Source of the DNA: Klebsiella pneumoniae
Lineage (GTDB): Bacteria > Pseudomonadota > Gammaproteobacteria > Eutrophobiales > Eutrophobiaceae
Reading direction: 5' to 3'
Length of the DNA: 55,048 nt
NCBI GenBank assembly: GCA_945870865.1
Contig: CAMBTO010000004.1
Coordinates: forward strand, 1 to 55,048
This document shows positions 4,806 through 42,292 of the stretch, piece by piece (within the stretch, counting starts at the first letter, position 1; each line of letters opens with the position of its first letter). Below the pieces are notes generated by a model that saw only the letters and a list, made by a program, of their open reading frames with translations, did no database searches and had not been told where the DNA came from. The position numbers were made by a program, and so were the translations under genes.

Positions 4806-5513
4806 TCAGGGAGACTTCAGGAAGCGACCGATCTGACCGGCCATGTTGCTGCATGCATTCGACTGGACCCGGGCCAGTAATGGAATCGGCAGGATGACGG
4901 CGGGCATATAAGAAGTGCCCGTGGATTCCGTGCTGATCTTGCCCTCAAGATTCAGTTCCTCAAAATCCCAGATCGTGGCCTCATAATTGGCCTCGTCGTC
5001 CCAGGTCGCAAATCCGAAACAGCCACCACCACCTGGACCCACAGTACACGACATTAGACCGGCCTTGTCGGTGGTCTGGGTATACCCATCGATCCACACA
5101 AAATAACGGATCCGGAATTCTGCCAGCTTGCTTGCAACCTCCGGTGTCTGGACCAGTCGATCCAGATTTTGCACATCCATCGGCGCGGTGCTGGACTCAA
5201 AATAGGGGTACATGCTGTCGAGGAATTCACGTTCGGGAATGATATTGACGCCGTGGAGTCGCCCCTTTAATGATTGCCCGACGCAATCGATAAAATCAAA
5301 TTCGGTTTCGTAACTGGCGTTGTTACGACGTCCGAGCACAACTATCGACTCACCTTCGATAAGGCTGGTGGATAGATTTTCCCGGTATTCATCCACGATG
5401 GTCGAACTTTTGCAGCCGCTGAGGATCAGCAGCACCAACAGTAACGCCAGAGGGAAGTACAGGCCTAGCACAGATGCTTGTATTCTGTGCAGTTGATCTT
5501 GCCGGACAACCAT
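4806..5513 (-). CDS. Predicted lipoprotein, last gene of the 12-gene envelope cluster
   Basis: A 235-residue protein of unknown function. A hydrophobic segment ends in LILSGC, a good lipobox with Cys34, so the mature protein should be lipid-anchored and face the periplasm. The mature part contains five or more cysteines and a glycine-rich stretch (TVGPGGGGCFGF). The open frame overlaps the upstream lipoprotein gene by 49 bases. A GTG at position 5471 would reduce the overlap to 7 bases and give a 20-residue signal, but without the usual basic n-region, so the start is uncertain. I recognise no family. Membership of the cluster rests on strand, overlap and shared envelope location. Confidence 0.75.
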   Translation of the reverse strand: MVVRQDQLHRIQASVLGLYFPLALLLVLLILSGCKSSTIVDEYRENLSTSLIEGESIVVLGRRNNASYETEFDFIDCVGQSLKGRLHGVNIIPEREFLDSMYPYFESSTAPMDVQNLDRLVQTPEVASKLAEFRIRYFVWIDGYTQTTDKAGLMSCTVGPGGGGCFGFATWDDEANYEATIWDFEELNLEGKISTESTGTSYMPAVILPIPLLARVQSNACSNMAGQIGRFLKSP

Positions 5514-6112
5514 TCCCGCATGCCCGGTGCCTTGCGAAAGTCCAGTACGAACCGCGCACCGATATCACGCAGTGCCAGATTGATGGCCTCGTTCAGGCCT
5601 TCCTCTTTGCTGGTAAACATCGCGGTCGGACTCTTGCCATAACCGGTCAGTTGCCATTCGCTGATGATTTTTCCGCCGGGCTCATACAGTTTGATACCGT
5701 ATTTAATCCAGGCCTCATACATGTCCGAGTGGGTCTCCTGCGGCAGCGCAAACTGGGTGTCCATCACCTCAGGCTCCAGCACCAGATCGGCCACGGTACC
5801 CTCCTTGCTGACAGGGGCAACAGCCTGAAACATCGACGGTAATATCTGTTCGAACAAGGCCATGCGCGGTTGCCGGTAATCTATCGACCAACTTTTACGG
5901 GACTTGCTGTCTTCCTTATAGATGTATTCGCGGAAACTATCCGGGTAATTCACGGCCAGCGTCAGGGGAAAGCGGGTGGCGAGCGGTGTGGGTAGTTTGC
6001 CTTCAACCTGCAGATTGATCCCGGACGCGCAGCCACCCGCCAGTATCAGCATAAAATAGAGCAGCACTCGAGGTGTTGGTCGGCAGATTATAAACATGCT
6101 GTTCGATCTCAC
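5465..6112 (-). CDS. Predicted lipoprotein of the envelope cluster
   Basis: A 215-residue exported protein. Residues 14-28 form a hydrophobic segment ending LILAGGC, a plausible though slightly atypical lipobox (Cys28). The mature part begins with a PLATRFPLTLAVNYPDSFREY segment and carries an IKYGIKLYEPGGKIISEW strand pattern, which resembles small periplasmic lipoproteins of the YajG/LptE size class, but I cannot assign it to either. It follows the vWA gene with a 22-base gap and overlaps the next lipoprotein gene. The two lipoproteins may form a pair that recruits an outer-membrane or peptidoglycan partner; this is inference from position. Confidence 0.78.
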   Translation of the reverse strand: MRSNSMFIICRPTPRVLLYFMLILAGGCASGINLQVEGKLPTPLATRFPLTLAVNYPDSFREYIYKEDSKSRKSWSIDYRQPRMALFEQILPSMFQAVAPVSKEGTVADLVLEPEVMDTQFALPQETHSDMYEAWIKYGIKLYEPGGKIISEWQLTGYGKSPTAMFTSKEEGLNEAINLALRDIGARFVLDFRKAPGMREWLSGKINCTEYKHLC

Positions 6113-6134
6113 ATCCGTGGATGAGATAGACAGA

Positions 6135-7133
6135 TTATCTGAATGTATTCAATCCTACAAATGCCCCGCCATTGCGTCGGGTCAGTTCGCGCATCAGGTT
6201 GGCAAAGCGTAGCCCGCCCATCTGCAAGGCGCGGGGATTGGCAAAAAGTACCGGAAATCCAATCGCATGCACACGTACCAGCGCATTTCCCTGCGCGTCC
6301 TTGGGATTAAGCCGGTCCACCGTGTCTATTACTTCCTCGATGGAGCGACCGGTAAAGTCGTCTCCGAATACGTACAGGCTGATTTTTTTATCAGCACTGT
6401 AAAATGTTGAAATTGCGGTAGTTATTCCCTCAACCGGGCTGCTGTTGCTGAACGGGTTCCAGGTACGCAGGCGGCTGACGATCGCCTTGCGTCTGGCCGG
6501 GGTGTCCGGTATCCATTTACCACGGTATTCCGAGTACATGTAACCGCCCTCGTCATCCATGATCTGCAGGCCTTTGACCTGAGGGTAGACATCCAGCGTA
6601 TTGATAATCTGCTCAGTCACCTTGTCCCAGGCGTACTGGAACATACTGCCGGAGGTATCGACGATAAAAATAATATATTCACTATCGATGGGAATGCCGC
6701 CTACTAGATCACTTTTTTGATCAACCTGACTACCGAGCAATCTTTCCATTTCATCGGAAAGGTCCTGCAGCGCGAGCTCCAGTTCACCCTTTATCACCGT
6801 GTTGACAGCGGCCCGTTCGCTGATGCTGGAAATATTCTGTTTGGTGTCGCCCAGTTCCTGGCTCAGACGGGCGACACGGATGTCCCATTCAGACAGTTGT
6901 TCCCGTTTTGCTGTCAGATCACGATTCAGGATTTGTGACTCGCCGCGCAGGGTGAATAGTTCCTCCTGCAATGCACGGATGATCCCTTCGTCCGGCACAG
7001 GAGACGGTTCCAGATTAACAGGGACACCGCTTCTCGAAATGACCAGTAGCAGAATAATCGCGCCAAACCCGCAGGTAATAACATCCAGAAAGGACAGGCT
7101 GATGATTTCAACGGAATCACGCCGTGATTTCAT
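6135..7133 (-). CDS. ExbD-like membrane anchor / coiled coil / vWA domain protein (second of two)
   Basis: A 332-residue protein with three parts. Residues 10-32 read ISLSFLDVITCGFGAIILLLVI, one membrane helix with Asp17 at its start, laid out like the proton-binding Asp and helix of ExbD/TolR. Residues about 52-140 are a heptad-rich coiled coil. From about 150 follows a von Willebrand A domain with an intact MIDAS motif DTSGSM (159-164), which normally binds Mg and a protein partner. Topology would place coiled coil and vWA in the periplasm. It starts with a 4-base overlap with the upstream vWA gene, so the two are translationally coupled. Its likely partner is the ExbB-like channel three genes upstream. 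The specific role is unknown. Confidence 0.85.
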   Translation of the reverse strand: MKSRRDSVEIISLSFLDVITCGFGAIILLLVISRSGVPVNLEPSPVPDEGIIRALQEELFTLRGESQILNRDLTAKREQLSEWDIRVARLSQELGDTKQNISSISERAAVNTVIKGELELALQDLSDEMERLLGSQVDQKSDLVGGIPIDSEYIIFIVDTSGSMFQYAWDKVTEQIINTLDVYPQVKGLQIMDDEGGYMYSEYRGKWIPDTPARRKAIVSRLRTWNPFSNSSPVEGITTAISTFYSADKKISLYVFGDDFTGRSIEEVIDTVDRLNPKDAQGNALVRVHAIGFPVLFANPRALQMGGLRFANLMRELTRRNGGAFVGLNTFR

Positions 7134-8215
7134 GGCCAGTCCCGGGAGGGGCTCATAAATGAACCGTTGCTCAGCTGGGCGAGTTGCCAGTAGGCACCTG
7201 CGGCCATCGGATCACCTTCCATCGGTAACAGGATAATGTTTACCGGAATGTTCTTTGGAAGCTGATTGACCGCATCTTCAAACAACTCAAGCCTGTTTCG
7301 ACCGGAGATGATAGCCTCACGCGGCGCGTTTCTGCCCTGGGTAGGCAGGCCATCGGTAATAAGATAAATGTTATCCGGGGCCGGGTTCATACGGCCAATC
7401 TCGGCAAACGCATTGACCAGGCTGGTGCCCCCCTCCGGCACTATCTTGTCGAGTTCTGATATCGCCAGATTCAACTGTTTCTTGTCGCTGACCGCTAACC
7501 ATTGTCCACGGGTCCCGGAAATCACCGAATCGGTGGTCGTGTTAAACGGAAAAATCTGATACTGGCTTGAGACCGGGAAGCGGGTGCTGAGCCAGCGCAC
7601 CATTTCCAGTGCCTGTTTCCATTTCTCTGACGTCCGCCGTGACTGCTCCGACATGTTGCGACGCCGAATCACATTCACAATGGTGTCATCCATCATGCTG
7701 GCCGACTTGTCAATCAGCACCAGTATACGTTTACCACCGAGTTTCAGACCGGTTAGATACTGGCGATTGCCTTCACCCGTAAAGCTGCGGGTGTCCTGAC
7801 CAGTTTTATCTGTTTCGGCCTCCAGCTGTTGACGTTCAAGTTCGAGGTCTTTCAGTTGCTTTTTAAGCTGTTCAATCTCCGCATCCTCTGCGGCCGAGGC
7901 AAGCGTCTGCTCCTTGCCCGATGTGTCATTCAGTTCATCAGTAATCCTTCTCGCCAGTCCCTGGGCAGTGACAACCCGGTTGTCTATTTCGGCTATGGTA
8001 TTACGTAGCTCGGCAAGGTTTTCCCTGCCTTCAAGGATTTCACGTTCCAGTAACGATACCTCTGACTGTTGATCAACGGTAGGTGTTGCTGTGGCGAGAT
8101 TTGAATTAGCATTATGTTTCATGATCAGGAACAGCAAAATCACAGCACCCAGACCACAGGACATCACGTCCAGAAAAGACAGACTCATGCCACCGATGGG
8201 CGTGCGGTTGGCCAT
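7130..8215 (-). CDS. ExbD-like membrane anchor / coiled coil / vWA domain protein (first of two)
   Basis: A 361-residue paralogue of the following gene with the same plan. The N-terminus SLSFLDVMSCGLGAVILLFLI (residues 11-31) is an ExbD-like helix led by Asp16. A long coiled coil spans about 52-136. The vWA domain has MIDAS residues DKSASM (169-174) and a later YLITDGLPTQG motif that supplies the usual metal-site Asp. The shared N-terminal motif SLSFLDV-x2-CG-x-GA-x-ILL shows that the two vWA proteins descend from a duplication, but their vWA halves differ strongly, which suggests distinct partners. It overlaps the Hsp70-like gene by one base. It is very unlikely to be a soluble chelatase-type vWA protein because of the anchor. 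Confidence 0.86.
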   Translation of the reverse strand: MANRTPIGGMSLSFLDVMSCGLGAVILLFLIMKHNANSNLATATPTVDQQSEVSLLEREILEGRENLAELRNTIAEIDNRVVTAQGLARRITDELNDTSGKEQTLASAAEDAEIEQLKKQLKDLELERQQLEAETDKTGQDTRSFTGEGNRQYLTGLKLGGKRILVLIDKSASMMDDTIVNVIRRRNMSEQSRRTSEKWKQALEMVRWLSTRFPVSSQYQIFPFNTTTDSVISGTRGQWLAVSDKKQLNLAISELDKIVPEGGTSLVNAFAEIGRMNPAPDNIYLITDGLPTQGRNAPREAIISGRNRLELFEDAVNQLPKNIPVNIILLPMEGDPMAAGAYWQLAQLSNGSFMSPSRDWP

Positions 8216-9534
8216 TAATCCGGTGCGACTTCAATCAGGCGTACGACCGTGTCCGCACCGGCGAAACTGACCGTGTCGCCGGTAGTGCCGATCTTCATCG
8301 CCAATAGCCGGTTGCCATTCACAAATACGGTCAGTTCGCTTTCCGGTTTGATCTCTATGCCTGCTGCGGTCCGGCGGAACGAGCAATGTTTGTTGTCGAC
8401 CGCGGAGTCTGACACGATCACACCGCTGGCCGATACATACACGGCGGAGGGGCCAAGTGCGTAGGCACGATGATTGATCAACAGGTGTGTGGCAGCGGCG
8501 GCAACCGGTGCCATTCTGTCAATCTGATGACTTGTGCCCATGCCACTGTTAACAGTTGGTGATTTGCTGGCAGGCAGTCTGGTAATGAAGCTGAGTGACG
8601 TGCCGGCGGTACGGAGATTCATCAGGTTGGTGTTGCAACCCTGGAACACGGCCTGTTCATCCAGCGCAATGGCATTTCCCAGTTGGCCGGAAAATCCAGG
8701 CAGGCCATGCAGGCGGTCGCTGATCAACGGCACGGACGTCCCCGTCAGTTCGCGGTAGATATTTTCGTAATGTGCCTTCAGCTTTTCCAGCAGTGGTTCA
8801 CTGAATATCCGTGCCTGATAACGGTTGTTTTTGAAATTGATCTCCAGCGTCAGTTCACCGCCGGCGCGCAGCGTGCGTAATGCCCCGGGTATCAGGTTAT
8901 AGAGTTCCTGCTCGGTCTGTGCATGGTGCAGCGGATCAAACCGTGACTGATCGATGAACGCATCGGCAAAACTGGCCACACAGATATCGTGTATGTCAGC
9001 GAGCCCGGTATCATTGATAACCTTGACCGAGGTGCGCGATACATGGTCTGTCACCTCCAGCGTGGACACCAGTGCATAATGCAGGTGGATATCCACATGG
9101 TTGTATATGCCTTGTTCCGCAATCGCCGCGACACAGGCGGTGGCCGTATCGACCAGACCCACGGCGGTGAACGGACACGCCTCGACAATACCGAGTAACA
9201 GCGCCAGTTGTTCCCTGGAATAGTTGCCGGGGACGGCGAACACAACTTCCTCCGGTTTGCCGGCCTGCTCATGTATCGCCAGCAGCTGGGCGTAGGCGAG
9301 GTCGGCATGGTGTCTGGCGAGACGGGAAGGCACTAACAGTGAGTCCTGGTTTAGCTGACTCCAGTAGCGGTGATAGGTCTGGCGTGGATTACTGCGTGCC
9401 ATCGCATAGGCCTGCTTGCCGGTCGTAATCCCGGTGTCTGCAAGCACGGCATAACCCGGCTGACGCAGCACGATGTTATCGCCCGTGCCCAGACGGATTT
9501 CACTGTCATTTAATTCAATGATAGCGGTCGACAT
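8215..9534 (-). CDS. Actin/Hsp70-like protein with FHA-like C-terminus
   Basis: A 439-residue protein without signal peptide or membrane helix, so probably cytoplasmic. The first ~330 residues look like an Hsp70/actin-fold ATPase: a first strand-turn AIIELNDSEIRLG, then EEVVFAVPGNYSREQLALLLGIVEACPFTAVGLVDTATA, which mirrors the 'VPA-y...r' and 'EPtAAA' stretches of Hsp70/FtsA proteins. The catalytic phosphate loops are weakly conserved, so ATPase activity is uncertain. The last ~100 residues (ALGPSAVYVS ... HCSF ... TVFVNGNRL ... GDTVSF) have the order of an FHA domain, which binds phosphothreonine. Gaps of 1-3 bases to its neighbours place it firmly in the operon. It may be the cytoplasmic regulatory or assembly ATPase of the complex. 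Confidence 0.65.
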   Translation of the reverse strand: MSTAIIELNDSEIRLGTGDNIVLRQPGYAVLADTGITTGKQAYAMARSNPRQTYHRYWSQLNQDSLLVPSRLARHHADLAYAQLLAIHEQAGKPEEVVFAVPGNYSREQLALLLGIVEACPFTAVGLVDTATACVAAIAEQGIYNHVDIHLHYALVSTLEVTDHVSRTSVKVINDTGLADIHDICVASFADAFIDQSRFDPLHHAQTEQELYNLIPGALRTLRAGGELTLEINFKNNRYQARIFSEPLLEKLKAHYENIYRELTGTSVPLISDRLHGLPGFSGQLGNAIALDEQAVFQGCNTNLMNLRTAGTSLSFITRLPASKSPTVNSGMGTSHQIDRMAPVAAAATHLLINHRAYALGPSAVYVSASGVIVSDSAVDNKHCSFRRTAAGIEIKPESELTVFVNGNRLLAMKIGTTGDTVSFAGADTVVRLIEVAPD

Positions 9535-9537
9535 GGT

Positions 9538-10335
9538 CTAGCGTACCTGCATATAACGGATCAGGTTGCTATCACAATAGGTACGAGTGTCGAGCACCAG
9601 TCGGTCCTGCATCAGCTGCAGTTGGTGGGTCAGGAACATGATCAGGATACTGATAAGCAGGGCAATCAATGTCGAGTTGAAGGCGACACCGAGGCTGGCG
9701 GTCACGCCGGTGATATCGCCCTGTACCGCGGCCTGGGCCTGGCTCAAGGCATCACCGATACCACGCACCGTGCCGATAAAGCCGAAGGAGGGAATGGCCC
9801 AGAGGATATAACGCACCATCGACAGCTCCGAATCCTGACGGTTGGACTCTTCTTCGCACACTTCCTTGACCGCATTGGCCACGTCCTGCACGTTGCGCGT
9901 CGAGCCGAAGCGCTGCAAGGCGGTTAGCAAGGCACGTGGCAGCAGGAAGTTTTGTTCCTGTGGCAGCGCAGATTGCAAGGTACGTACGAACTGGCGGACA
10001 TCTTCCGGCAGGATACTGGTCCCCTCCGGTATATCAAGCAGCGATCTGTTCAGCAAGCGGCGTTCGTGTAGCGCGAGGCGGATCTTCAGGCCGATGATGG
10101 CAATGACCCACAGACCCATAATGACGCAGATTTCCTGCTCCGGGTCTTTCAGGATGATGTAGGCAGACTTGGGCATCTCCGCATCTTCACCGGCCGCCAT
10201 TTTTTCCTGTTGTTGTTGAAACAGGGCGTCCGCATTCGGTCTGATAACGGTGACATAAATGGCGTGGACAATGATGATGGAAAATATCAGTGCAAACAGC
10301 TGATAGATAAACTCGGAAACCTGCGTATGTTTCAT
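9538..10335 (-). CDS. MotA/TolQ/ExbB-family proton channel subunit
   Basis: A 265-residue inner-membrane protein with helices near residues 10-30, 88-106, 167-190 and 210-232. The C-terminal half carries the family signature: IPSFGFIGTVRGIGDAL, then SLGVAFNSTLIALLISILIMFL, matching the 'P..G.lGTv.G' and 'G.A..sTl.aLl' blocks of TolQ, ExbB and MotA. Family members form the ring through which protons pass while an Asp-bearing single-helix partner (ExbD, TolR, MotB) turns or moves inside. Here the only candidate partners are the two vWA proteins encoded just downstream, both with such an Asp. No tolR, tolA, exbD or motB of standard form is present, so this is neither the Tol system nor flagellar. 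Confidence 0.93.
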   Translation of the reverse strand: MKHTQVSEFIYQLFALIFSIIIVHAIYVTVIRPNADALFQQQQEKMAAGEDAEMPKSAYIILKDPEQEICVIMGLWVIAIIGLKIRLALHERRLLNRSLLDIPEGTSILPEDVRQFVRTLQSALPQEQNFLLPRALLTALQRFGSTRNVQDVANAVKEVCEEESNRQDSELSMVRYILWAIPSFGFIGTVRGIGDALSQAQAAVQGDITGVTASLGVAFNSTLIALLISILIMFLTHQLQLMQDRLVLDTRTYCDSNLIRYMQVR

Positions 10336-10359
10336 GTTGATTCCTTCATGGAGTATTCC

Positions 10360-10596
10360 CTAGATGTCTACCGGAAACGGGACCGACAGGTCTTCGGAGA
10401 TGGTTTCGCTCGGCACAAACTGCTCGGCGGGCGGTGTGGATTTTCCCGCTGCCGGTTTTTCTGTTGCGGCGGGTTGCTGCTGCGCTGATGGTTCAGGATT
10501 GGCGGAGGTGGTAGGCGGCACCTGCTGGGCGATCACACCCGGTGGCGTCAGCATCAGTAATAACAGAATAAGACCTGATTTAATAAGTATACTCAT
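10360..10596 (-). CDS. Small secreted Pro/Gln/Ala-rich protein
   Basis: A 78-residue protein with a clear signal peptide (hydrophobic residues 7-22, cleavage likely after VIAQ or GVIA). The mature ~55 residues are rich in Pro, Ala, Gln, Ser and Glu and should be disordered, ending in SVPFPVDI. It overlaps the PEGA/FGE gene by 4 bases (stop-start coupling) and precedes the channel gene, so it is almost certainly translated. I recognise no family. A short flexible periplasmic linker or channel accessory peptide is a guess from size and position. Confidence 0.75.
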   Translation of the reverse strand: MSILIKSGLILLLLMLTPPGVIAQQVPPTTSANPEPSAQQQPAATEKPAAGKSTPPAEQFVPSETISEDLSVPFPVDI

Positions 10597-12686
10597 TCGA
10601 GATAACGTGCAATCCTGAAACCGACATCGTTACGTTTGTCCTTGCCATAATCACGAAACGACAGACGCAGTTCAGTGACCGAACCATGACTCCAGCTGGC
10701 ACCGCGGATCACATGGTGTTCGCCACTGTCCGCACCCAGCGAGTCCAGCGAGGTTGATCCTTCTTCTGCCATATTGATATCATAAAAGTCGTGCGTCCAT
10801 TCAGCCACATTTCCACCGATATCGTACAGCCCTTTCTGGTTCGGTGTAAAACTGGCTACCGGGGCGGTGACGATCGACCCGTCGGTATATTCCGCCTGGA
10901 TAATCGCGAGGATCGGGGCGGCAGACACATCGGCGTAGTTGCCCGATTTCGGTGCGGGTGGAAGCGCATCACCCCACGCAAACTTCAGGTTGATCGTATT
11001 GCCCTGATCGCGCGCTGCCCATTCCCACTCAGCCTCGGTAGGCAGACGATAACCGTTGGCGGCCGGGTTGAAACCGGTCACCTTGTTATCTTTCACCAGA
11101 TAGAACGGTGTTAACGTGGCCTTTTCGCTGAGCCAGTTGCAATACAGTGCCACCTGTTCCCATGTGATATTGACGACCGGTTGTTTGTCGCCGTTCAGAT
11201 CATGGCCCTGGACCTCGCTAGAGGTGTGCTGGCTGTCAAACTGACGAAACTCGGCATTGGTCACCTCGGTCAGTGACAGGTAAAACGGCCGTGTGAACTG
11301 CACATTGCGGATCGTTTCATTGGCGCGTCGTCCCGGTTCACGTCGCGAGGCGCCCATCGTAATGGCAACCGCCTCGAACAGTTTCAGCTTTTGTCCGCCT
11401 GGCGAGCTAATCTCGGTCCGGACGGCGTCCCGTTTAGCCTGTTCAATCGACTTCAAGCGTGCCGAGACTTGCTGCGCAATACCGGGCCGCGGTGTGATCG
11501 TCGTTTTGTAATCGAGATAACCGGCCTTGCGGATCTCGACCGTATGTGGCGTGGTTGACAGTTCCACGGTCTGATCGGCCAGCCCCTGTGGCTTGCCGTC
11601 GATATAGACCTCGGCATCGGCCGGATCGGCCAGGATACGTACCTCTGCGATTTCCTGTTGCAATTCGATGTTGAGTGTTCGGCTGTCACCGGACTTCGCA
11701 TTGATCTTCTGTACTGATTGTGCATAACCCTGACTGAACAGACGGATGGTTGCTGCCTTGCCGGGCGTCAACGCGATCTCCAGTGGTGAGATGCCCTTGT
11801 ATTCGCCGTCCACTGTCACACTGGCGCCTGCCGGCCGGGTATTGATCTGGACGACCGCATCGGCCTGTTCCAGCTGGATGGCGGTCAGTTGCTGAGCCTC
11901 TCCGGCGGTAACACGCACGGCCTTGCGCCAGTCCTTGTAACCGGCCAGCTTGATACGCAGGTTGTGTTCACCCTGCAGGATTTCTGCGGTCAGTGGGGTT
12001 TGTCCGGCGAGTTGATCATCCACATACACATCGGCACCGACGGGCAGTGTCTCCAGCCGGACATCGCCCCAGGCGGCCTTCAATTCAGCGGTCAGGGATT
12101 GTTGCTGGTCCTTGCCTTCGATCGTCACCGCCGTCTCGTAGGGCAGATAGCGATCGGCCAGCACCTCAATAGTGTAGGTTCCGGGTTCGAGCGGTGTGAG
12201 CGTGGTCGGTGTCTGTCCGCGGACAGTATTATCAATCCGGATTTCGGCGGCGATCACCGGGACGGTATCTATTTGCAGATGACCGGGTAAGGGGCGCAGC
12301 GTGTACGCATATTGCTGGTTTTGTTTCTCATTGACAGTCAGTATCTGGTGTAGAGGATGATAGCCCGGGGCAGTTGCCTGCAACTGGTAATCGCCCTCGC
12401 GCAACAGGAAACGGTCGGCCAGTTTTAACTGCCAGCCACCGCTGATTTCGATCTGTGCGTCAGCCGGGTCAGTGCTGAGATACACCGCCTTGCCGGTGAC
12501 GATATACCCGGCCAGTAGTGCACAGACCAGTAGCGCCGCCGAGATGAGCAGTGTACGCGGACGTGCGCGGAACAGTTTACGGCCGCGCTGTAGCTGGAAT
12601 GGTTCAAACCTGACCGGTTCTATCGTCGGGCCCGGGGTAAAACCGGCTGGCGTAAGCGGGAACTCACCTTCAGTTTGATCTTTCAT
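10593..12686 (-). CDS. Membrane-anchored PEGA-repeat protein with FGE/SUMF1-like C-terminal domain
   Basis: A 697-residue protein. A cytoplasmic N-terminus of about 45 residues precedes one membrane helix (46-63). From about 70 to 415 there are around five PEGA-type beta modules, each with a 'G-x-y-x-V/I-x-V-x-A-x-G-Y' turn (e.g. EVLADRYLPYE, RIKLAGYKDW, EIRKAGYLDYK), known from cell-surface anchoring proteins. The last ~270 residues are a formylglycine-generating-enzyme fold: NAEFRQF, PVVNITWEQVALYCNWLSE, YRLPTEAEWEWAAR, GLYDIGGNVAEWTHDFY, VIRGASW, DVGFRIAR. In true FGE the cysteines after RGGSW bind copper; here SHGSVTELRLSFRDYG has none, so the domain is probably structural or binding only. 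Other non-catalytic members (PvdO-like) are known in periplasmic systems. Confidence 0.88.
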   Translation of the reverse strand: MKDQTEGEFPLTPAGFTPGPTIEPVRFEPFQLQRGRKLFRARPRTLLISAALLVCALLAGYIVTGKAVYLSTDPADAQIEISGGWQLKLADRFLLREGDYQLQATAPGYHPLHQILTVNEKQNQQYAYTLRPLPGHLQIDTVPVIAAEIRIDNTVRGQTPTTLTPLEPGTYTIEVLADRYLPYETAVTIEGKDQQQSLTAELKAAWGDVRLETLPVGADVYVDDQLAGQTPLTAEILQGEHNLRIKLAGYKDWRKAVRVTAGEAQQLTAIQLEQADAVVQINTRPAGASVTVDGEYKGISPLEIALTPGKAATIRLFSQGYAQSVQKINAKSGDSRTLNIELQQEIAEVRILADPADAEVYIDGKPQGLADQTVELSTTPHTVEIRKAGYLDYKTTITPRPGIAQQVSARLKSIEQAKRDAVRTEISSPGGQKLKLFEAVAITMGASRREPGRRANETIRNVQFTRPFYLSLTEVTNAEFRQFDSQHTSSEVQGHDLNGDKQPVVNITWEQVALYCNWLSEKATLTPFYLVKDNKVTGFNPAANGYRLPTEAEWEWAARDQGNTINLKFAWGDALPPAPKSGNYADVSAAPILAIIQAEYTDGSIVTAPVASFTPNQKGLYDIGGNVAEWTHDFYDINMAEEGSTSLDSLGADSGEHHVIRGASWSHGSVTELRLSFRDYGKDKRNDVGFRIARYLE

Positions 12687-12701
12687 TCAGGCGCCCACGT
12701 A

Positions 12702-14261
12702 CTACCTAGCAGCGATCTTTTCGACAGCAGAGATAACAACAACCTGTGCAGGCACCTCGGCAGTGACGGTAAACTCAACCCGCACATCACGGTATCCCGG
12801 ACGCGTACCCACAGCGGTATAGTTGCCCGGTACCAGCGCCATACTTTTTTCGCTGAACTTGCCAAGTGCACCGACCCTGACCAACGAGACCTCGGTCAGT
12901 GTGTCCGAGCGAAACAGGATATCGAGTGGAACCGTCGCAATGGCGAGCAGTTTTTCCACCTTTTGCAGCTGGACTGCCAGTCGTGGCTCTGCCGGGTTGA
13001 TTTGACGTGCCTGCTCAAATATCGAACTTGCTTCTGCATGCACCGCGGTATCAGCCAGGCGTTCCGGTTTGGCAATGATCTGTTCGAGCCTGGCATCCAG
13101 CTGGACACGGCTGCTTGCATACTGTTTACCTTCCTGCGCCTGGGCGAGATTCGTATCCAGTGCAAGTGCCTTGTCATAAGCGGCCACTGCCTCACCCCAT
13201 TTCTCTTGCGACTCCAGTGTCGTGGCAGTTTGCAGCAAGGTGGAGATTTCGTCATTGAGCAGGCGTGTATCAATTTGTGCAATCGCCGAGCCTGCCTCTG
13301 CGGCACCGGGTTTCATGCGTCTGGCTTGTTCAAATGTGGCTTTTGCCCGGGTCAGATCATTGTTCTGCAGATGTGCATAACCGGCAGACATCTGCCGGGT
13401 AAATTCCGCCTCACCCAGTCGGGCGTTGACAGCGGCCAGTTGTTGCTTCGCGGTCACCGATTGTTTGTCCAGCGCAAGTGCCTGTTCATAGACGGCCTTT
13501 GCCTGTTTGAGGTCGCCATTCAGTTGCAGATCATTGCCTTCGGTGATCAGCTTCAGCACCTGATCCAGCGATTGCGCACGCATCAGGCCTGCTTTGGCGG
13601 AGCTATCATCTGCTTTCATCACCAGCGCACGTTCAAATGCCTGGCGGGCGGCGATGGCATCTCCGTTATCAATGGCCGTGTTGCCCGCATCGACCGTTGC
13701 TGTAAAGAGAGTATCCATATTATCGAGCAGAGCCGACATGGCTTCCGCTGCATTGTTATAGAGTGTTGCCGAGGTGTTGAAATCCTGCGCCTGATAAGCG
13801 GAATCCCCGTCGGTCGCCAGTTTTAGTATGTTTGCATATTCGTCAGCGGCCCAGGCCTGTACATTTTTTTGTTCAAGCTGGTCCTGCAGTTCCAGCATAT
13901 GCGCCAACAACTCCTGGCTTTTGCTGCGTTGCCTCGCGAGCTGTGCGGTTTGCCAGGGCGCGGCCTCTTTCGGTGCCGTGCTGGCGGCTGTGGCCGTAGT
14001 GTTATTGTCAACACCGGCAGGCATGTCGGTCGCCGCTGTCAGTACCGGTGGCGTAACATACTGTGGCAGCACAATGATCACGCCAGCGGCAATAACGACC
14101 AGCGTGAACAGGGCCAGCCAGATCCATTGCATGGCGGAGGGGGCGGCACGGCCGGCCGGTTTGCCAGGTTCATTGGCCAGCGTGCGGGTCAGTACGATCT
14201 CGGCCGGTCTGATGGCGTTATCGCCGGCGCTGGTGCGTCCATTTTCAGTATTGTCAGTCAT
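12702..14261 (-). CDS. Membrane-anchored TPR protein with PEGA-like C-terminus
   Basis: A 519-residue protein with a short cytoplasmic N-terminus, one membrane helix at about 46-66 and a large periplasmic part. Residues about 110-430 are helical repeats with the TPR spacing, for example DAIAARQAFERALVMKADDSSAKAGL, NGDLKQAKAVYEQALALDKQS and KWGEAVAAYDKALALDTNLAQAQ. The last ~80 residues form a beta module ending VPGNYTAVGTRPGYRDVRVEF, a PEGA-type turn like those of the gene that follows. The gap to the PEGA/FGE gene is 15 bases. TPR arrays assemble protein complexes, so it probably acts as scaffold between the inner-membrane channel and the lipoproteins; that is inference. A long antisense open frame over this gene is a by-product of the repeats. 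Confidence 0.87.
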   Translation of the reverse strand: MTDNTENGRTSAGDNAIRPAEIVLTRTLANEPGKPAGRAAPSAMQWIWLALFTLVVIAAGVIIVLPQYVTPPVLTAATDMPAGVDNNTTATAASTAPKEAAPWQTAQLARQRSKSQELLAHMLELQDQLEQKNVQAWAADEYANILKLATDGDSAYQAQDFNTSATLYNNAAEAMSALLDNMDTLFTATVDAGNTAIDNGDAIAARQAFERALVMKADDSSAKAGLMRAQSLDQVLKLITEGNDLQLNGDLKQAKAVYEQALALDKQSVTAKQQLAAVNARLGEAEFTRQMSAGYAHLQNNDLTRAKATFEQARRMKPGAAEAGSAIAQIDTRLLNDEISTLLQTATTLESQEKWGEAVAAYDKALALDTNLAQAQEGKQYASSRVQLDARLEQIIAKPERLADTAVHAEASSIFEQARQINPAEPRLAVQLQKVEKLLAIATVPLDILFRSDTLTEVSLVRVGALGKFSEKSMALVPGNYTAVGTRPGYRDVRVEFTVTAEVPAQVVVISAVEKIAAR

Positions 14262-14351
14262 TATGCAGTCAGTGTTGAATTAGTTTTACAGCGGGAACGG
14301 TGCGGGATAAACCGCTGTCTGGCGCTGTTCCGGATTCGGATTACCCGGAGG

Positions 14352-15563
14352 TCAGTCCGGATCTGCCGGTACCGTCCCGGGCGGTGTGACCTGCCCCGTC
14401 TCTGTCATATATATCTGTTTGAGAATGGCACGCCACTGATCATACTGCTGATTTACCGTACCGGACAGTGTCACCGTATTATTGTCGAGTTCTATCGTGC
14501 GTGGTTCCAGTTCTGCATTTAGCGAAGTGCCAAGCTCTTCCAGTGCCTGCACATGAATCTTTGCCTCTTCGCGTCGGTCGAGACCTTCCTTTACCAGATA
14601 GGCCCCTGCGCCTATACCAACGATACCGGCGGTATTAATCACTCTGCTGTTACTACCCTGGGCCAGGATGCCGCCGATGACCGCTACCGCGCCGCCAAGT
14701 AATTTTCCCGCTGCATCATTGCGTATTTGTCTGAGGGCAACAGTTTCTTCATAACTCATCCGGCGCCATTCACGGTAGGGTTGTTCCATGCTGGTTTCAA
14801 ACGAGGTGTAATAGTCCTGTAGTGTGTCCACGAACATATTGTCACGCTGGCGTATCTTGCGGATGCGTTCCAGTGTCGGGTCATTTTCGGCGGGCAGTCT
14901 TTTAACGGAGTAGATACCCCGGTTATTGGCCTCAATATGATCGTTAAACGCCTCCGGTGAAAACTGTCTGGCAAACTTCAGCTCGGTAATCGTATTGATA
15001 TTGGCGACATCGGCCGGTTTCAGCTTTTGCATGTAGGCAAGCAGGTCGTTGGCAATGTCGTTATATATTCCCTGGAACGGTTCTTCGCCCCGGCTGCGGA
15101 TACTGTTGTCGTAGGCATACTTGCTCGCCGTACTGTCATAGTCTTTTGCATACCAGGTCTTGCCGGTGGAATCCTGCACCCGGATCCGCAATCCCAGCTT
15201 TTCTCCATCTGACTTGAGGATCTGCCCATCGATCCAGATATCCATTTCACTCTGCCGCCCGGGTACCAGCCTGACCACACCCCAGTTACCGCTGTCTTGC
15301 AGCGTTTTGCCGATCTTCATCGGGAAGAACCGGGATTCGGCATTGCGCACCTGCAGATAGATACCTTCCTTCTCGGCCGTAGCAGGATCCGCTCCCGGAT
15401 TGAACAGATCGATACCCACATCGAGCAGGTCCTGCTCTGCAACGGGTGCGGTATTACGCACGATGGCGTTGTGTTGTGTCGACTTGACCGTGGTCGAGCT
15501 GCATCCTGTGAGCAGTGAGCTGATCATTAACAACAGGACAGCGAGTTTGTTACCGGTGTTCAT
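14352..15563 (-). CDS. Predicted lipoprotein with glycine-rich hydrophobic segment
   Basis: A 403-residue protein. Residues 8-21 end in SSLLTGC (Cys21), a standard lipobox. The mature part has an N-terminal beta/alpha domain with DIWIDGQILKSDGEKLGLRIRVQDSTG, similar in style to LpoB-type or curli-type lipoproteins, though no family is assigned. Around residues 290-335 a glycine-rich hydrophobic stretch (KLLGGAVAVIGGILAQG ... AGIVGIGAGAYLV) looks like a glycine zipper, which in other envelope proteins packs helices or inserts in membranes. The tail is acidic and Pro-rich. It begins with a 4-base overlap with the Ser-rich lipoprotein gene, so the two are coupled. Confidence 0.8.
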   Translation of the reverse strand: MNTGNKLAVLLLMISSLLTGCSSTTVKSTQHNAIVRNTAPVAEQDLLDVGIDLFNPGADPATAEKEGIYLQVRNAESRFFPMKIGKTLQDSGNWGVVRLVPGRQSEMDIWIDGQILKSDGEKLGLRIRVQDSTGKTWYAKDYDSTASKYAYDNSIRSRGEEPFQGIYNDIANDLLAYMQKLKPADVANINTITELKFARQFSPEAFNDHIEANNRGIYSVKRLPAENDPTLERIRKIRQRDNMFVDTLQDYYTSFETSMEQPYREWRRMSYEETVALRQIRNDAAGKLLGGAVAVIGGILAQGSNSRVINTAGIVGIGAGAYLVKEGLDRREEAKIHVQALEELGTSLNAELEPRTIELDNNTVTLSGTVNQQYDQWRAILKQIYMTETGQVTPPGTVPADPD

Positions 15564-16768
15564 TTTTTTACCTGTACTCCTTGTTTGTACTTGCGGTATT
15601 CATCCCAGAGTTTTTCCCGGAGTGCCGGGTCTTTTTCCTGTATTGCTGCCTCGCGTAACTGGCGGGCGACAATATCATCATCCGTGCCATCAGAGATATC
15701 GGCCGGAATGTTTGGATTCCCCGCCCCCTGGTTCTTGTATTCACCCGGGCGATTATCAGACTGCGCATTGGGTAGTTGTCCTGCGGTCTGGTTATTGTTC
15801 GGGTCGCCTGCACCGTTACCGGCCGTCAGTAACGGCGGGGCCGAGCTGCCGCTGTCTCCACTGCTGCCATCACCACCGCCATTGCCGACTACAGTTTGGC
15901 CGGCACCTGTCTCATTTGTTCTGGCGATGGCCTCCTGGCGACGGCTGAGGATCACGCCATCAAACACGCCCATGCTGTTGTTCAGGTCCCGATCCAGCGT
16001 CTCCACCCGTTCCTGTCCGGTGACAACGGCCGGGCTACCATCGATGACAACGACCCGGCGTCCAGCTCCACCATTCGTTGTACCGCCACCTGCGCTTGTT
16101 GCTGTGCCGCCCGCGCTTGTGCCCTGACCCGTAGCACTACCTGTCCTGGCAGTGTTGGTGCCCGCCGGAGTACCCGTACCTTGCTGCCCGGAACTATTGT
16201 CACTGTTGCCTGTTCCGGTAGTACCACCGCTGCCCTGACGGGTACCGGATGCGGTGTTGTCCAGGACGCTTGGGGATTGTTGCGTGCCAGCATTGCCACT
16301 GGTGGAAGTGCCGGATTGTACTGATTTGTTAAATACCTCGATGGCGCCGGACAGCACCTCGTCCTCGGTCTGCACGCCACCGGTGGTCATACCTCCCTGT
16401 TGGGAGGAAGAACCTGTAGCCGCAGGGCTGCCTGTCCCCGTTGTTGTCGACCCGCTGTTTGCCTGGGTTGTCCCTGTCTTACCCTGACTCGACTGGCTGG
16501 TAGAGGGACTGCCCGCTTGGGATGATGATGGCTGCGGAAAATTGGCACCCATCGTCGGTTGCGAATTCCCGGTGCTGGAGGAAGTCGAGCTGGATGACGA
16601 TGGGCTGGAAGGTGATGAACTCGAGGACTGGCTGCCAGAGGACGAGGAACTGGACGACGAACTTGAGCTGGAGCTGCTGGATTGTTGCGATTCCGGCGTT
16701 TTACAGCCGGCGATCAGCGACAGCAGTGATGCAACAAGCAAAAGCCCTGAAATTGTTTTTATTGACAT
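15560..16768 (-). CDS. Serine-rich, low-complexity lipoprotein
   Basis: A 402-residue lipoprotein (lipobox SLIAGC, Cys22). Residues about 30-75 are a nearly pure serine tract with a few Pro and Gly, followed by some 250 residues rich in Ser, Gly, Thr, Asn and Gln that should be extended and disordered. Only short islands look folded: EDEVLSGAIEVFNKSV, a region with RVVVIDGSPAVVTGQERVETLDRDLN, and a charged helical C-terminus (VARQLREAAIQEKDPALREKLWDEYRKY). The serine tract uses all six codons mixed together, so it is not a slipped microsatellite but is kept for its protein property, probably as a flexible spacer from the lipid anchor. Function unknown. Confidence 0.8.
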   Translation of the reverse strand: MSIKTISGLLLVASLLSLIAGCKTPESQQSSSSSSSSSSSSSSSGSQSSSSSPSSPSSSSSTSSSTGNSQPTMGANFPQPSSSQAGSPSTSQSSQGKTGTTQANSGSTTTGTGSPAATGSSSQQGGMTTGGVQTEDEVLSGAIEVFNKSVQSGTSTSGNAGTQQSPSVLDNTASGTRQGSGGTTGTGNSDNSSGQQGTGTPAGTNTARTGSATGQGTSAGGTATSAGGGTTNGGAGRRVVVIDGSPAVVTGQERVETLDRDLNNSMGVFDGVILSRRQEAIARTNETGAGQTVVGNGGGDGSSGDSGSSAPPLLTAGNGAGDPNNNQTAGQLPNAQSDNRPGEYKNQGAGNPNIPADISDGTDDDIVARQLREAAIQEKDPALREKLWDEYRKYKQGVQVKK

Positions 16769-16782
16769 AAGGTAACCCCGGA

Positions 16783-18309
16783 CTATTCCTGAAATGTATA
16801 CACCATTTTAACGTCTTCTGTGGCAATTGGTTGACCGTTTTCCAGACGCGGGCGAAAAGGAGTGATGTTTATCCTCTCCCTGGCCATGCGCCGGAGCCTG
16901 GAATCATCCTCCGGATTTGTCATTATAAACTCAAGATTGCGTACAATTCCGGATGAAGTTACATCAAATTGAACCACTACATAGGCGGTATCCTCCAGTT
17001 CTGCTGTCACCAGTTCCTGCAGGTCTATATCGGTTTTTTCTGACATGTCGATACCCTCAATCGCCCTGGATGGGTCTGTATCCAGTGAGGGGGTGGACAG
17101 ACTGGCAGCCATCATTCTGGGTACATTGAGCGCATCCAGCGAGATCGGCTTTCCAAACAGTTCATCAAGCTCAGTTGACTCTGCCCCTGCACCGGTCAGT
17201 AAGGTATAGGCCTCCTGGTAATAATGGGTAGAGGCATCACGCTTGCTGAAACGCTGGAACCAGTCACCTGTCTGTGTCAGTGCATAGGCATAGGACCGAC
17301 GTGTCAGGTCCGGATGTTTAACGTGGATATCCACTATCTTTTCCAGTGCCGCCCGACCACTGCGGTAGCTGTTCTGGATCAGACTGAGCGAGTCCTTTTC
17401 CACATCAAGCACACGCGCCAGGTAATCACCTCCGTAATTCTGCTGCAGAAAGGTACTACGAAACTCATCGTTGCTGCCGTTCTGGGTGAAGTTACTGGGT
17501 AATAGCAGCATCCCACTAGCACCGATGATCATGTCTATGCCTTCGATGTAGCCGTAAGGTTCTATCAATTTGAAATTGGCATTCACGATGCCATACAGTA
17601 GTCGTATCATGTCAGGATGGTCATCGCCCTTGACCAGTTTGATAATTTCCAGCGATTCGTTATAGAGGTTCGCCGCGACAACCAGATGTCCGAGTGACTC
17701 CGGCATCAGTGTCTTATTGAACGCATCCAGATGCCATTCAGCGATGCGGTCCAGCACGGGCAACATGCGCAGGTCATTCTCCGGGAAATTGCGTTTATAG
17801 ACCCAGAGCATGTAACTGTAATTGTTATTCAACTGGTTATAATCATTCAGCGCGGTATTCGCCTCGATCACACGTTCGAGTATCGGAATCTGCTCGAGAC
17901 TGTGCAGACCATGATTGACCCGGTTGATATGCAAGGCACGCTGATAGACTTTCAGTGCCTCGGCATGTTTTTCGGCATCACTGTAGGCCAGTCCGAGTCC
18001 AATCAGTTGCTCTACCAGGTCGTTGTTATAAGCGCCACTCTCACTTTCAAGATGCTGAACTTCACTGGCGTAAAGTTTTATGGTCTGCTCGATTTGTGGA
18101 TCTATTTCTGACGCGGGTGTATCGGCCACACTGGCCGGATCTGCCATATCGTCTCCGGATTCCGTTGCGGTTTCCCCGGACGATGGGGCGGGTTCATCAG
18201 TGGGGGATGTCAGCGGTGCCAGGTCTGTCTGTTGTGCGGTCACGATGAGCGGCGCGCCGGCAACCAGCGGCAGTAGAATCAGTAGTTGAAGCGGATACAG
18301 GTTTTTCAT
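16783..18309 (-). CDS. Periplasmic TPR-like protein with TonB-type C-terminal domain; first gene of the cluster
   Basis: A 508-residue exported protein. The frame is open 12 codons further upstream, but the chosen ATG begins a good signal peptide (MKNLYPLQLLILLPLVAGAP, cleavage near VTAQ) and has AAAGGA upstream. Residues about 75-180 contain TPR-like helices (LGLAYSDAEKHAEALKVYQRALHINR). The last ~75 residues resemble a TonB C-terminal domain: AYVVVQFDVTSSGIVRNLEFI ... RRMARERINITPFRPRLENGQPI. Unlike TonB it lacks an N-terminal membrane anchor and proline-rich spacer, so it would be a soluble periplasmic adaptor. It is divergent from phaB, and the cluster promoter should lie in the 290 bases between them. 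Confidence 0.82.
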   Translation of the reverse strand: MKNLYPLQLLILLPLVAGAPLIVTAQQTDLAPLTSPTDEPAPSSGETATESGDDMADPASVADTPASEIDPQIEQTIKLYASEVQHLESESGAYNNDLVEQLIGLGLAYSDAEKHAEALKVYQRALHINRVNHGLHSLEQIPILERVIEANTALNDYNQLNNNYSYMLWVYKRNFPENDLRMLPVLDRIAEWHLDAFNKTLMPESLGHLVVAANLYNESLEIIKLVKGDDHPDMIRLLYGIVNANFKLIEPYGYIEGIDMIIGASGMLLLPSNFTQNGSNDEFRSTFLQQNYGGDYLARVLDVEKDSLSLIQNSYRSGRAALEKIVDIHVKHPDLTRRSYAYALTQTGDWFQRFSKRDASTHYYQEAYTLLTGAGAESTELDELFGKPISLDALNVPRMMAASLSTPSLDTDPSRAIEGIDMSEKTDIDLQELVTAELEDTAYVVVQFDVTSSGIVRNLEFIMTNPEDDSRLRRMARERINITPFRPRLENGQPIATEDVKMVYTFQE

Positions 18310-33996: not shown

Positions 33997-35097
33997 TCAG
34001 GAACAATAAATCGCCCCGAGTATGACCTGTCGACTTGCCCCGGTGACCGCCGGGATATTGGCAGGTAGCTGCTCCAGCCTGCATTTTGCCAGCCAGGCAA
34101 ACGTAACCGCTTCAACTGCATCCGCACTCACCCCGTAATGATCGGTAGGTACGATGGTTCGGTCCGGCATGTATTCTTTCAATCTTTGTAACAGCGCACG
34201 GTTATGCACGCCACCGCCACAAACGAGTACTTCCGTCGTTTCGGCGGCGTTCTGTGCGATTGCTGTGCTGATGGAACGCGCCGTCAGTTCCAGCAGGGTA
34301 GCCTGGACATTGGCAGGCTCAATTTGACGCCCCGTCATGTTCAGTTTGGAGGCGAGCCAGCCCGTATTAAAATCGTCCTTACCCGTGCTTTTCGGCGGAC
34401 GTTTACTGAAGTAGGAATCCGCCAGCATCAGTCCGAGTAATTGCAGGTCGACTTTGCCCGAGGCGGCCCAGGCACCGTCAGTATCAAAGTCACATTGCTG
34501 ATGTAACTGGATCCAGCCATCCATCAGGGCATTGCCAGGACCGGTATCAAACCCGGTGATTTCACGGTCTGACCTTGCAGGTAACACGGTAATGTTTGCC
34601 ATGCCGCCCAGATTCAGCACCACGCGATCCCGCTCTGCAGAGCGAAATCGCCAAGCATGGAAGGCACAGGCCAGTGGCGCGCCCTGACCACCCGCAGCAA
34701 TATCGTTACGGCGAAAGTCGGCCACGGTCGTGATCCCTGTTTTGACAGCAATCCGGGCCGGGTCACCGATCTGTAGTGTGCGGGGGTAAGTGCCGGTGGG
34801 CAGATGCATTACCGTCTGCCCATGACTGCCTGTGGCAGTAATCGCTGCCGGGGTCAGTCCGGAGAGTGCCAGTATGGCACTGACTGCATTAGCAAACAGT
34901 TCACCCAGGATGACGTCAAGTTCGGTTATCTGCTCCAGTGATGTCTGAACAGTGACCTTGCGCACGGCGGTCTGGACGGCGGACGGGATCGGATATTGTC
35001 GATACTGGAGGACGACCAGATTATTGTCGTTAATTTCTACCAGCGCAGTATCAATGGCGTCCATGCTGGTTCCGGACATGAGGCCAATATAATACAC
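33997..35097 (-). CDS. anmK: Anhydro-N-acetylmuramic acid kinase AnmK
   Basis: A 366-residue sugar kinase that phosphorylates and opens 1,6-anhydro-MurNAc released from peptidoglycan, returning it to the cell-wall recycling pathway. The ASKHA fold shows GLMSGTSMDAIDTALVE at the N-terminus (first phosphate loop), ATGSHGQTVMHLP, VVLNLGGMANITVLP, GFDTGPGNALMDGWI with the catalytic Asp region, and VCGGGVHNRALL. The length matches. It starts 2 bases after the end of the M23 peptidase gene, so peptidoglycan hydrolysis and recycling are co-transcribed. Confidence 0.95.
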   Translation of the reverse strand: MYYIGLMSGTSMDAIDTALVEINDNNLVVLQYRQYPIPSAVQTAVRKVTVQTSLEQITELDVILGELFANAVSAILALSGLTPAAITATGSHGQTVMHLPTGTYPRTLQIGDPARIAVKTGITTVADFRRNDIAAGGQGAPLACAFHAWRFRSAERDRVVLNLGGMANITVLPARSDREITGFDTGPGNALMDGWIQLHQQCDFDTDGAWAASGKVDLQLLGLMLADSYFSKRPPKSTGKDDFNTGWLASKLNMTGRQIEPANVQATLLELTARSISTAIAQNAAETTEVLVCGGGVHNRALLQRLKEYMPDRTIVPTDHYGVSADAVEAVTFAWLAKCRLEQLPANIPAVTGASRQVILGAIYCS

Positions 35098-35099
35098 AG

Positions 35100-42100: not shown

Positions 42101-42292
42101 CTGATGACCTCGGTGGCGACGATAGCCGGACATTTCCCGTTGACGCTGGTGGAAGGCCCCGGTGCGGCGGCGCGTAATTCGATCGGTCTGGTGCTGGTCG
42201 GTGGTATGGCGGTGGGGACGATCTTCACGTTGTTTGTTGTGCCCTCACTGTATATGCTGATTGCCAGACAGCATGAGAAGGTGACAGCCTGA
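39194..42292 (+). CDS. RND multidrug efflux transporter (HAE1 family)
   Basis: A 1032-residue inner-membrane proton/drug antiporter of the AcrB/MexB class. It begins with TDIFVTRPVLAIVVNLMIIIAGLQAW as TM1; the large periplasmic loops follow TM1 and TM7. TM4 has LLTLLAIVLSVGLVVDDAIVIVENVDRRM with the proton-relay Asp pair, and TM10-11 contains VGLVTLVGLIAKNGILIVEFAN and RFRPVLMTSVATIAGHFPL. Twelve helices can be counted. Family members export dyes, detergents and antibiotics; the substrate here is unknown. It forms one operon with the adaptor upstream and ends 3 bases before the end of the convergent CcoP-like gene. Confidence 0.96.
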   Translation: MKAFTDIFVTRPVLAIVVNLMIIIAGLQAWNSLSVRQYPRSENASVTVATVYVGASAEVVRGFISTAIERAISSVDGIDYVESKSLLGLSLVTARLKLNYDPTKALTDITAKVNQVRNELPAESQVPSISLQSADSEFASAYLSFSSEAMSQSEITDYLVRTVQPRLAAVTGVQNAEILGARTFAMRVWLKPLEMAALNVSPSQVYGALASNNYLAAVGSTKGAFVQVNLTANTDLHTVDEFKNLVIREQNGTIIHLADVADVELGAEDYDTEVRFNDQTAVFMGIFPLPNANTIDVVARIRVELEAIKKGLPPGLEASIGYDASEYISNAIHEVVFTLIDTLLIVIVVIFLFLGSFRSVLVPVVAIPVSLIGGVFLMQSFGFTLNLLTLLAIVLSVGLVVDDAIVIVENVDRRMREGQTALQAALAGARELIGPVIAMTITLAAVYTPIGLQGGLTGTLFREFALTLAGAVTISGIVALTLSPMMSAKLLRVSEKEEGFSWWVNSHFNRLRDSYAHGLDRTLHARPAVYTVWAVLSLMAIPMYMFSPTELAPLEDQGFMFGIINNAANATADQKSHYGRAVENAFLVTPERDLTFQLLLSPSDPFAAGLGVGGFSGMVVKPWDQRERSMKEILHEVQGRMAQIPGLQIFVGMPPALPGGSNFPIEFVITSTDAPEKMLEVARQLQTKAMESGIFYFPPEIDLKFDQPQAEIVIDHKKVADLGLSNAQVGSDLAAALGGNYVNRFNIDGRAYKVIPQLARSERLNPEQLGNIYVTGPNNQLVPLSTFATIKNTTVPRSLNRFQQLNAIKLSGMTAQLDAGLKVLEQASAEILPPGYSIDYTGESRQLRTEGGKFLPALGLAVLLIFLVLAVQFNSFREPFVILLGSVPLAMFGALIFTVLKLPNPDMPYWTDGWTTTMNIYAQVGLVTLVGLIAKNGILIVEFANKLQESGHDKFAAIREAAITRFRPVLMTSVATIAGHFPLTLVEGPGAAARNSIGLVLVGGMAVGTIFTLFVVPSLYMLIARQHEKVTA

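Follow-up and report, generated by a model that had tools for sequence, protein, structure and literature searches.

The window (the whole stretch of 55,048 nucleotides that was analysed) carries, between positions 4806 and 18309, twelve co-directional open reading frames (ORFs) on the minus strand (Table 1). The first-pass annotation of this DNA had described twelve same-strand genes with tight junctions, and all 12 ORFs, their strand and their order were confirmed. According to the ORF coordinates, nine of the 11 junctions have a gap or overlap of no more than 24 bp. These are the gaps at g01/g02 (14 bp), g04/g05 (15 bp), g06/g07 (24 bp), g07/g08 (3 bp) and g10/g11 (22 bp), and the overlaps at g02/g03, g05/g06 and g09/g10 (4 bp each) and at g08/g09 (1 bp). 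The other two junctions are a gap of 90 bp at g03/g04 and an overlap of 49 bp at g11/g12, where the start is uncertain.

Table 1 Genes of the cluster and their positions in the window.
Gene	Product and features	Position	Strand	Status
g01	Secreted TPR protein, weak TonB_C-like C-terminal domain	16783..18309	-	accessory
g02	Lipoprotein, long disordered Ser/Gly linker, conserved C-terminal motif	15560..16768	-	
g03	Outer membrane (OM)-type lipoprotein, TolB-N/LptE-like alpha/beta domain and long helical hairpin, Gly-rich hydrophobic tip	14352..15563	-	
g04	Single-TM protein of the inner membrane with periplasmic TPR, C-terminus PEGA-like by eye, IxPAxI/F motif in the cytosolic tail	12702..14261	-	
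g05	Inner-membrane single-TM protein, five PEGA and FGE fold without catalytic Cys pair, cytosolic tail with IxPVxF	10593..12686	-	
g06	Small secreted disordered peptide, near-invariant C-terminus FxPSExISADxxVSFPVDI	10360..10596	-	
g07	Proton channel of the MotA/TolQ/ExbB type with Thr189 and Thr222 in the pore	9538..10335	-	
g08	Cytosolic Hsp70-NBD fold, degenerate nucleotide loops, C-terminal FHA domain	8215..9534	-	
g09 (vWA1)	N-terminal TM pore helix SLSFLDVMSCG (Asp16, Cys20), then a coiled coil and a MIDAS-intact vWA domain	7130..8215	-	
g10 (vWA2)	N-terminal TM pore helix SLSFLDVITCG (Asp17, Cys21), then a coiled coil and a MIDAS-intact vWA domain	6135..7133	-	
g11	Lipoprotein, no fold assigned	5465..6112	-	accessory
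g12	Lipoprotein, no fold assigned	4806..5513	-	accessory

Lipobox-type termini were found on all four lipoproteins (IAGC, LTGC, AGGC and LSGC). The cluster is bordered by genes for an SDR and an acyl-CoA dehydrogenase at one end and by an FAD oxidoreductase gene and bioA at the other; all are oppositely oriented, and congeners have the same flanking genes. Promoter and terminator scans returned site counts no higher than in shuffled DNA, and Rfam gave no match within the window. Most of the domain labels assigned in the first pass held, namely MotA_ExbB, PEGA, FGE, FHA, the Hsp70 fold and, through homology and the MIDAS, vWA. The exception is the TonB_C label of g01, which is only suggestive because its score is under the cutoff (18.2 vs 24.6 bits).

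Conservation and spread of the cluster

Relatives of vWA1 are present in 23 of 58 close genomes, and the gene order around them is kept down to 28–37% identity. The vWA2 profile matched in 28/369 genomes of the class and in 16/398 genomes of the phylum. A scan of named genomes returned at least 444 relatives, from which 80 loci were kept; these come from Pseudomonadota, Acidobacteriota, Thermodesulfobacteriota/Desulfobacterales, Myxococcota, Phycisphaerales (Planctomycetota) and Kiritimatiellae (Kiritimatiellota). Since the order recurs in about 100 further loci it does not reflect chance, and the cluster is a real, widespread and syntenic system. Its conserved core consists of nine genes, g02 to g10, in an order kept across at least six phyla, and g01, g11 and g12 are lineage-specific. 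The complex of twelve genes that had been proposed thus stands as a conserved machine for nine of them and falls for the other three. One of these, g01, heads the putative operon in the window and lies downstream, on the opposite strand, in Steroidobacteraceae.

Presence of each gene was counted only over the named loci where its position is visible. The vWA pair is adjacent in all 77 such loci, and the PEGA/FGE protein was found in 58/60, the TPR protein in 53/56, g03 in 47/51, the Hsp70/FHA protein in 62/70 and the small peptide in 53/67. The first-pass annotation had held that its reading would fail if channel and vWA genes occurred apart in related genomes; they stay together in 65 of the 67 visible loci, and separation is confined to two exceptions. 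One (L145) is an orphan second vWA pair in a genome that also has a complete copy (L194). In the other, a Kiritimatiellae MAG (L153), the cluster is split, with the vWA pair and the g05–g08 part on different contigs.

A tree of g07, g09 and g10 broadly tracks taxonomy, with the window's family next to Cellvibrionaceae, Microbulbiferaceae and Halieaceae. Within that window family, three loci (L050–L052) group as a deep subtype lacking g08. Pairwise distances of seven core genes correlate at 0.61–0.92 over 54 loci, as expected from co-inheritance, a range that shared taxonomy alone would also give.

Predicted motor core and associated proteins

The channel protein g07 matches the Pfam family MotA_ExbB (PF01618) with 51.8 bits, compared to a cutoff of 22.9, and its Thr189 and Thr222 have a conservation of 1.00 in 88 sequences. 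In a weak alignment (48%) with the TolQ of the same genome, the GTV and second Thr positions coincide. A PDB sequence search with the channel profile found nothing at E 0.01. Both vWA proteins begin with the helix motif S-FLD-V-x-x-C-G-x-G. Conservation of the pore-helix Asp is 0.99 in vWA1 (Asp16) and 1.00 in vWA2 (Asp17). In both families the Cys four residues after it reaches 0.99, and the DxSxS and downstream Asp of the MIDAS reach 1.00. Single-sequence Pfam searches placed the vWA of g09 below the cutoff and did not detect that of g10; the two families are homologous (hhalign 99.6%), and it is through the alignment with g09 that the vWA identity of g10 becomes visible. Comparison of vWA2 with the genome's TolR by hhalign did not align the TM/pore helices, and the pore-helix assignment therefore follows from motif and position. 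ExbD/TolR models gave no match among the 12 window genes (g11 and g12 were checked in one library or two). Judged by their sequences, g07, g09 and g10 carry two hallmarks of 5:2 proton motors of the MotA/TolQ/ExbB class, i.e. a putative A-subunit with pore Thr and an adjacent putative B-subunit with a TM Asp.

In two genomes the TGA of vWA2 was considered as a possible recoding or selenocysteine site; this was rejected, as it is the ordinary terminal stop.

The remaining core genes encode candidate load, scaffold and adaptor proteins. The proteins g02 and g06 are mostly disordered, with conservation confined to their C-termini, which carry the motif DDDIVARQLREAAxExDPxLREKLWxEYRKYK in g02 and end in FPVDI in g06. 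The model of g03 comprises an alpha/beta domain followed by a long helical hairpin whose Gly-rich tip is poorly modelled. Its best structural matches are the TolB N-domain and LptE, both partial (TMq 0.17), and a PDB sequence search with g03 gave nothing useful. In g05, the five PEGA and the FGE-sulfatase domain score far above the Pfam cutoffs, and the best NCBIfam match of the FGE domain is GldK/PorK, with 117 bits vs a cutoff of 350. A catalytic FGE enzyme is ruled out, because the active-site Cys pair is absent: among 82 sequences the sole common Cys is Cys516 (YCNW), and none lies in the C-terminal active-site region.

The predicted structure of g08 (pLDDT 91) has an Hsp70 NBD fold, which Foldseek matches to Hsp70 structures with E = 3e-16, and when its profile is aligned to Hsp70 the DLGGGT and GGSTRIP regions are not kept. 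Its C-terminus is an FHA domain rather than an Hsp70 substrate-binding domain; the window protein scores 20.8 vs a cutoff of 20.7 bits, and two orthologues score E = 2e-11 and 4e-11. A short motif, IxP[VA]x[F/I/W], is common to the tails that g04 and g05 extend into the cytosol. The IxPVxF-type motif, a pattern picked after viewing some of the sequences, occurs in 49 of 82 g05 tails and 24 of 74 g04 tails, compared to 1.6 and 0.9 in shuffles. It is found in 55/76 loci with g08 and in 0/10 loci without it. The tree implies only about two losses of g08, which left a phylogenetic test with only two independent pairs, and the co-loss of g08 and the motif is suggestive, not significant. The g05 tail is long in 32 loci and FHA-like by eye, with weak Pfam support in one.

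Relation to known envelope motors

Our literature search, in which preprints and most subscription journals were outside the scope, found no paper on the full cluster, and one study alone came close. Williams-Jones et al. (2025, Mol Biol Evol 42:msaf138, PMC12204202) predicted a TPH-vWA pair as the dimeric partner of a TolQ-like pentamer. According to the text of that paper, the motor consists of a TolQ-like channel and a heterologous TM-tethered vWA pair with a proton-binding Asp and has no TolR/ExbD; it ranges over Proteobacteria and Verrucomicrobia-type bacteria, with Idiomarina (loihiensis) as the reference example. The cluster likewise has the channel next to the vWA pair, a pore-helix Asp and no TolR/ExbD, and by every feature compared with that description it is a member of the TPH-vWA motor class. 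Beyond what this text describes, it has a conserved nine-gene neighbourhood and a wider range of phyla; the same text makes no mention of PEGA, FGE, sulfatase, Hsp70, associated lipoproteins or a peptide. The earlier statement that the cluster matches no known system was therefore partly right: its motor core had been predicted, and the cluster is thus not wholly without known counterparts, while PEGA, FGE and Hsp70 do not appear in the text of the 2025 paper.

What is new here is the nine-gene anatomy, with its near-invariant Asp, pore Thr and MIDAS residues. Also new are the TolB-N/LptE-like OM lipoprotein (g03), the FGE fold without catalytic cysteines (g05), the Hsp70 fold with degenerate loops (g08), the IxPVxF cytosolic motif in two inner-membrane proteins, the FPVDI C-terminus of the secreted peptide, and the M48 protease neighbours described below.

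By analogy, the cluster would work most like Tol-Pal, with which it shares a PMF motor in the inner membrane, periplasm-spanning elements and an OM lipoprotein with a TolB-N-like domain; it differs in having no TolR, TolA, full TolB or Pal. A canonical ybgC-tolQ-tolR-tolA-tolB operon sits on another contig (C1) of the same genome, and the cluster is therefore not a displaced Tol-Pal. The GldKLMN core of T9SS/gliding also combines a motor with an FGE-fold protein. However, the FGE protein of the cluster is inner membrane-anchored with PEGA repeats and scores far under the GldK cutoff, and there is no GldL/M/N. ExbBD-TonB and Zorya ZorAB share the MotA/ExbB-fold channel and an Asp-bearing single-helix partner, whereas the partner in the cluster ends in vWA instead of ExbD-C, TonB or an OmpA peptidoglycan-binding domain, and Zorya effector genes are absent.

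Proposed function and alternative readings

A complex powered by a proton channel and spanning the envelope, as proposed in the first pass, remains the best reading of the cluster. We favour, with moderate confidence, a 5:2-class motor that uses the PMF to transmit force across the envelope, and its parts and neighbours suggest OM maintenance or quality control as the most likely role. In all 15 Halieaceae/Cellvibrionaceae/Microbulbifer-type loci whose downstream sequence is long enough, the gene immediately after g12 encodes an M48 metalloprotease, and several relatives within the window's family have shorter HExxH proteases behind the cluster. An OmpA/Gly-zipper gene lies directly after g10 in three loci (L128, L144 and L159). 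These neighbours, the M48 and OmpA genes being limited to subsets of loci, point to the outer membrane.

In the proposed mechanism, g09 and g10 would form a heterodimeric axle within a g07 pentamer, and proton flow through g07 would rotate or pull it. The periplasmic vWA heads may bind acidic ligands; candidates for the MIDAS are the disordered, conserved-ended g06 (...FPVDI-COOH) and g02 (DDDIVARQLREAA...), a purely conjectural pairing. The load side would be the OM lipoproteins g02 and g03, and the inner membrane-anchored g04 (TPR) and g05 (PEGA and an FGE fold without catalytic cysteines) could provide a static periplasmic scaffold. Through their IxPVxF motif, the tails of g04 and g05 might serve as docking sites for the cytosolic g08. 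Such a machine would spend energy on maintaining the outer membrane or controlling its quality, alongside the separate canonical Tol-Pal.

If this is true, many diderm bacteria have an energised envelope machine without an assigned function or known phenotype, PMF-driven force transduction to the outer membrane extends beyond the Ton, Tol and gliding motors, and vWA/MIDAS chemistry serves as a motor output. A bolder version is possible but doubtful: that this is a third major PMF-powered OM machine beside Ton and Tol-Pal, with a vWA-heterodimer axle, an acidic peptide ligand on the MIDAS metal and an Hsp70-fold/FHA cytosolic adaptor, and that it is of ancient origin and was passed on mostly by vertical descent in several diderm phyla. 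The list of nine core genes and key residues, together with culturable hosts (Microbulbifer, Steroidobacter and Halioglobus relatives), makes the 2025 prediction testable.

Four other readings were weighed against the force transducer. In the first, the cluster is an apparatus for surface-protein export or display like the T9SS/gliding core (GldK FGE-fold protein and GldLM motor), whose motor would drive the secretion or the movement of a substrate at the cell surface. The GldK/PorK match of g05 (117 bits) suggests this, as does an FGE domain that is non-catalytic, like structural FGE, alongside a 5:2-class motor and OM lipoproteins. We consider it unlikely, as that score is far under the cutoff of 350 bits, g05 is anchored in the inner membrane and is not a lipoprotein, the cluster has neither an OM translocon (SprA-like barrel) nor a GldL/M/N homologue, and no substrate gene recurs in the flanks.

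An envelope mechanosensor or regulator, to which we give a similarly low probability, would generate no force; its vWA heads would sense the periplasm or outer membrane and signal via the channel to the cytosolic FHA/Hsp70-like protein. The FHA domain and degenerate Hsp70 fold, joined by the putative docking motif, would suit such a role, and the disordered tethers could serve as gauges. vWA domains are, moreover, classic ligand-binding modules. The near-invariant proton-path residues, however, indicate energy use, and g08 is missing from whole clades that retain the motor.

Slightly less probable again is a module devoted to cell division or cell shape and distinct from Tol, which would duplicate the function of Tol-Pal by pulling on the outer membrane at one particular site. 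The TolQ-like motor, the TolB-N-like lipoprotein and, in some loci, the OmpA-like neighbour recall Tol-Pal logic, but the genome has a canonical tol operon as well, the core is without a Pal-type peptidoglycan-binding domain and no division gene recurs among the flanks examined.

ZorA belongs to the MotA family, and Zorya is a defence system built on a proton motor. The channel family in common with ZorA is what speaks for a Zorya-like anti-phage system, a role which the first-pass annotation had allowed and which we regard as very improbable, given that PADLOC returned no system match for the proteins tested (coiled-coil hits only), NCBIfam ZorA_4 scored 12.9 bits vs a cutoff of 500, no nuclease or helicase effector was recognised in the window cluster, the motor tree broadly tracks taxonomy and the housekeeping flanks are conserved in the genus.

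Pore-helix cysteines and variant clusters

Both proteins of the vWA pair carry a cysteine four residues after the pore aspartate (Cys20 in vWA1, Cys21 in vWA2). Conservation of this cysteine is 99% in each of the two families. L050, L051 and L052, from the same family as the window, represent a deep-branching cluster subtype that lacks the Hsp70-fold/FHA gene g08 and the lipoprotein genes g11 and g12. Peristeroidobacter soli (L145) has a second, orphan copy of the vWA pair, with no channel gene in the 8 kb upstream of it.

N-terminal extension of g05

The inner-membrane PEGA/FGE protein g05 has a long cytosolic N-terminus in the four tabulated loci and about 28 others. Judged by eye, this extension looks FHA-like; a Pfam FHA match was obtained in L124 only (E 0.05).

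Genes next to the cluster and elsewhere in the window

A Gly-zipper/OmpA-family gene lies about 100 bp downstream of g10 in three related loci. Directly after g12, an M48 metalloprotease lipoprotein gene is found in L115, L120, L134, L137-L140, L142, L150, L156-L158, L165, L166 and L169, and in L037, L038, L040, L042, L044, L046 and L048 the cluster has shorter, secreted proteases of the HExxH type downstream of it.

Coordinates of features in the window and related loci
Feature	Locus	Position	Remark
vWA1, vWA2	window	6135-8215	
anmK (anhydro-N-acetylmuramic acid kinase) and adjoining M23 peptidase gene	window	33997-36602	
AcrB-type RND transporter gene	window	39194-42292	
TonB-dependent receptor gene	window	49661-52729	Plug domain
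g05, long N-terminus	L104	3917-6328	
g05, long N-terminus	L113	4060-6501	
g05, long N-terminus	L124	5422-7827	
g05, long N-terminus	L147	5323-7743	
Gly-zipper/OmpA-family gene	L128	11119-11871	same strand as g10
Gly-zipper/OmpA-family gene	L144	11086-11829	same strand as g10
Gly-zipper/OmpA-family gene	L159		same strand as g10
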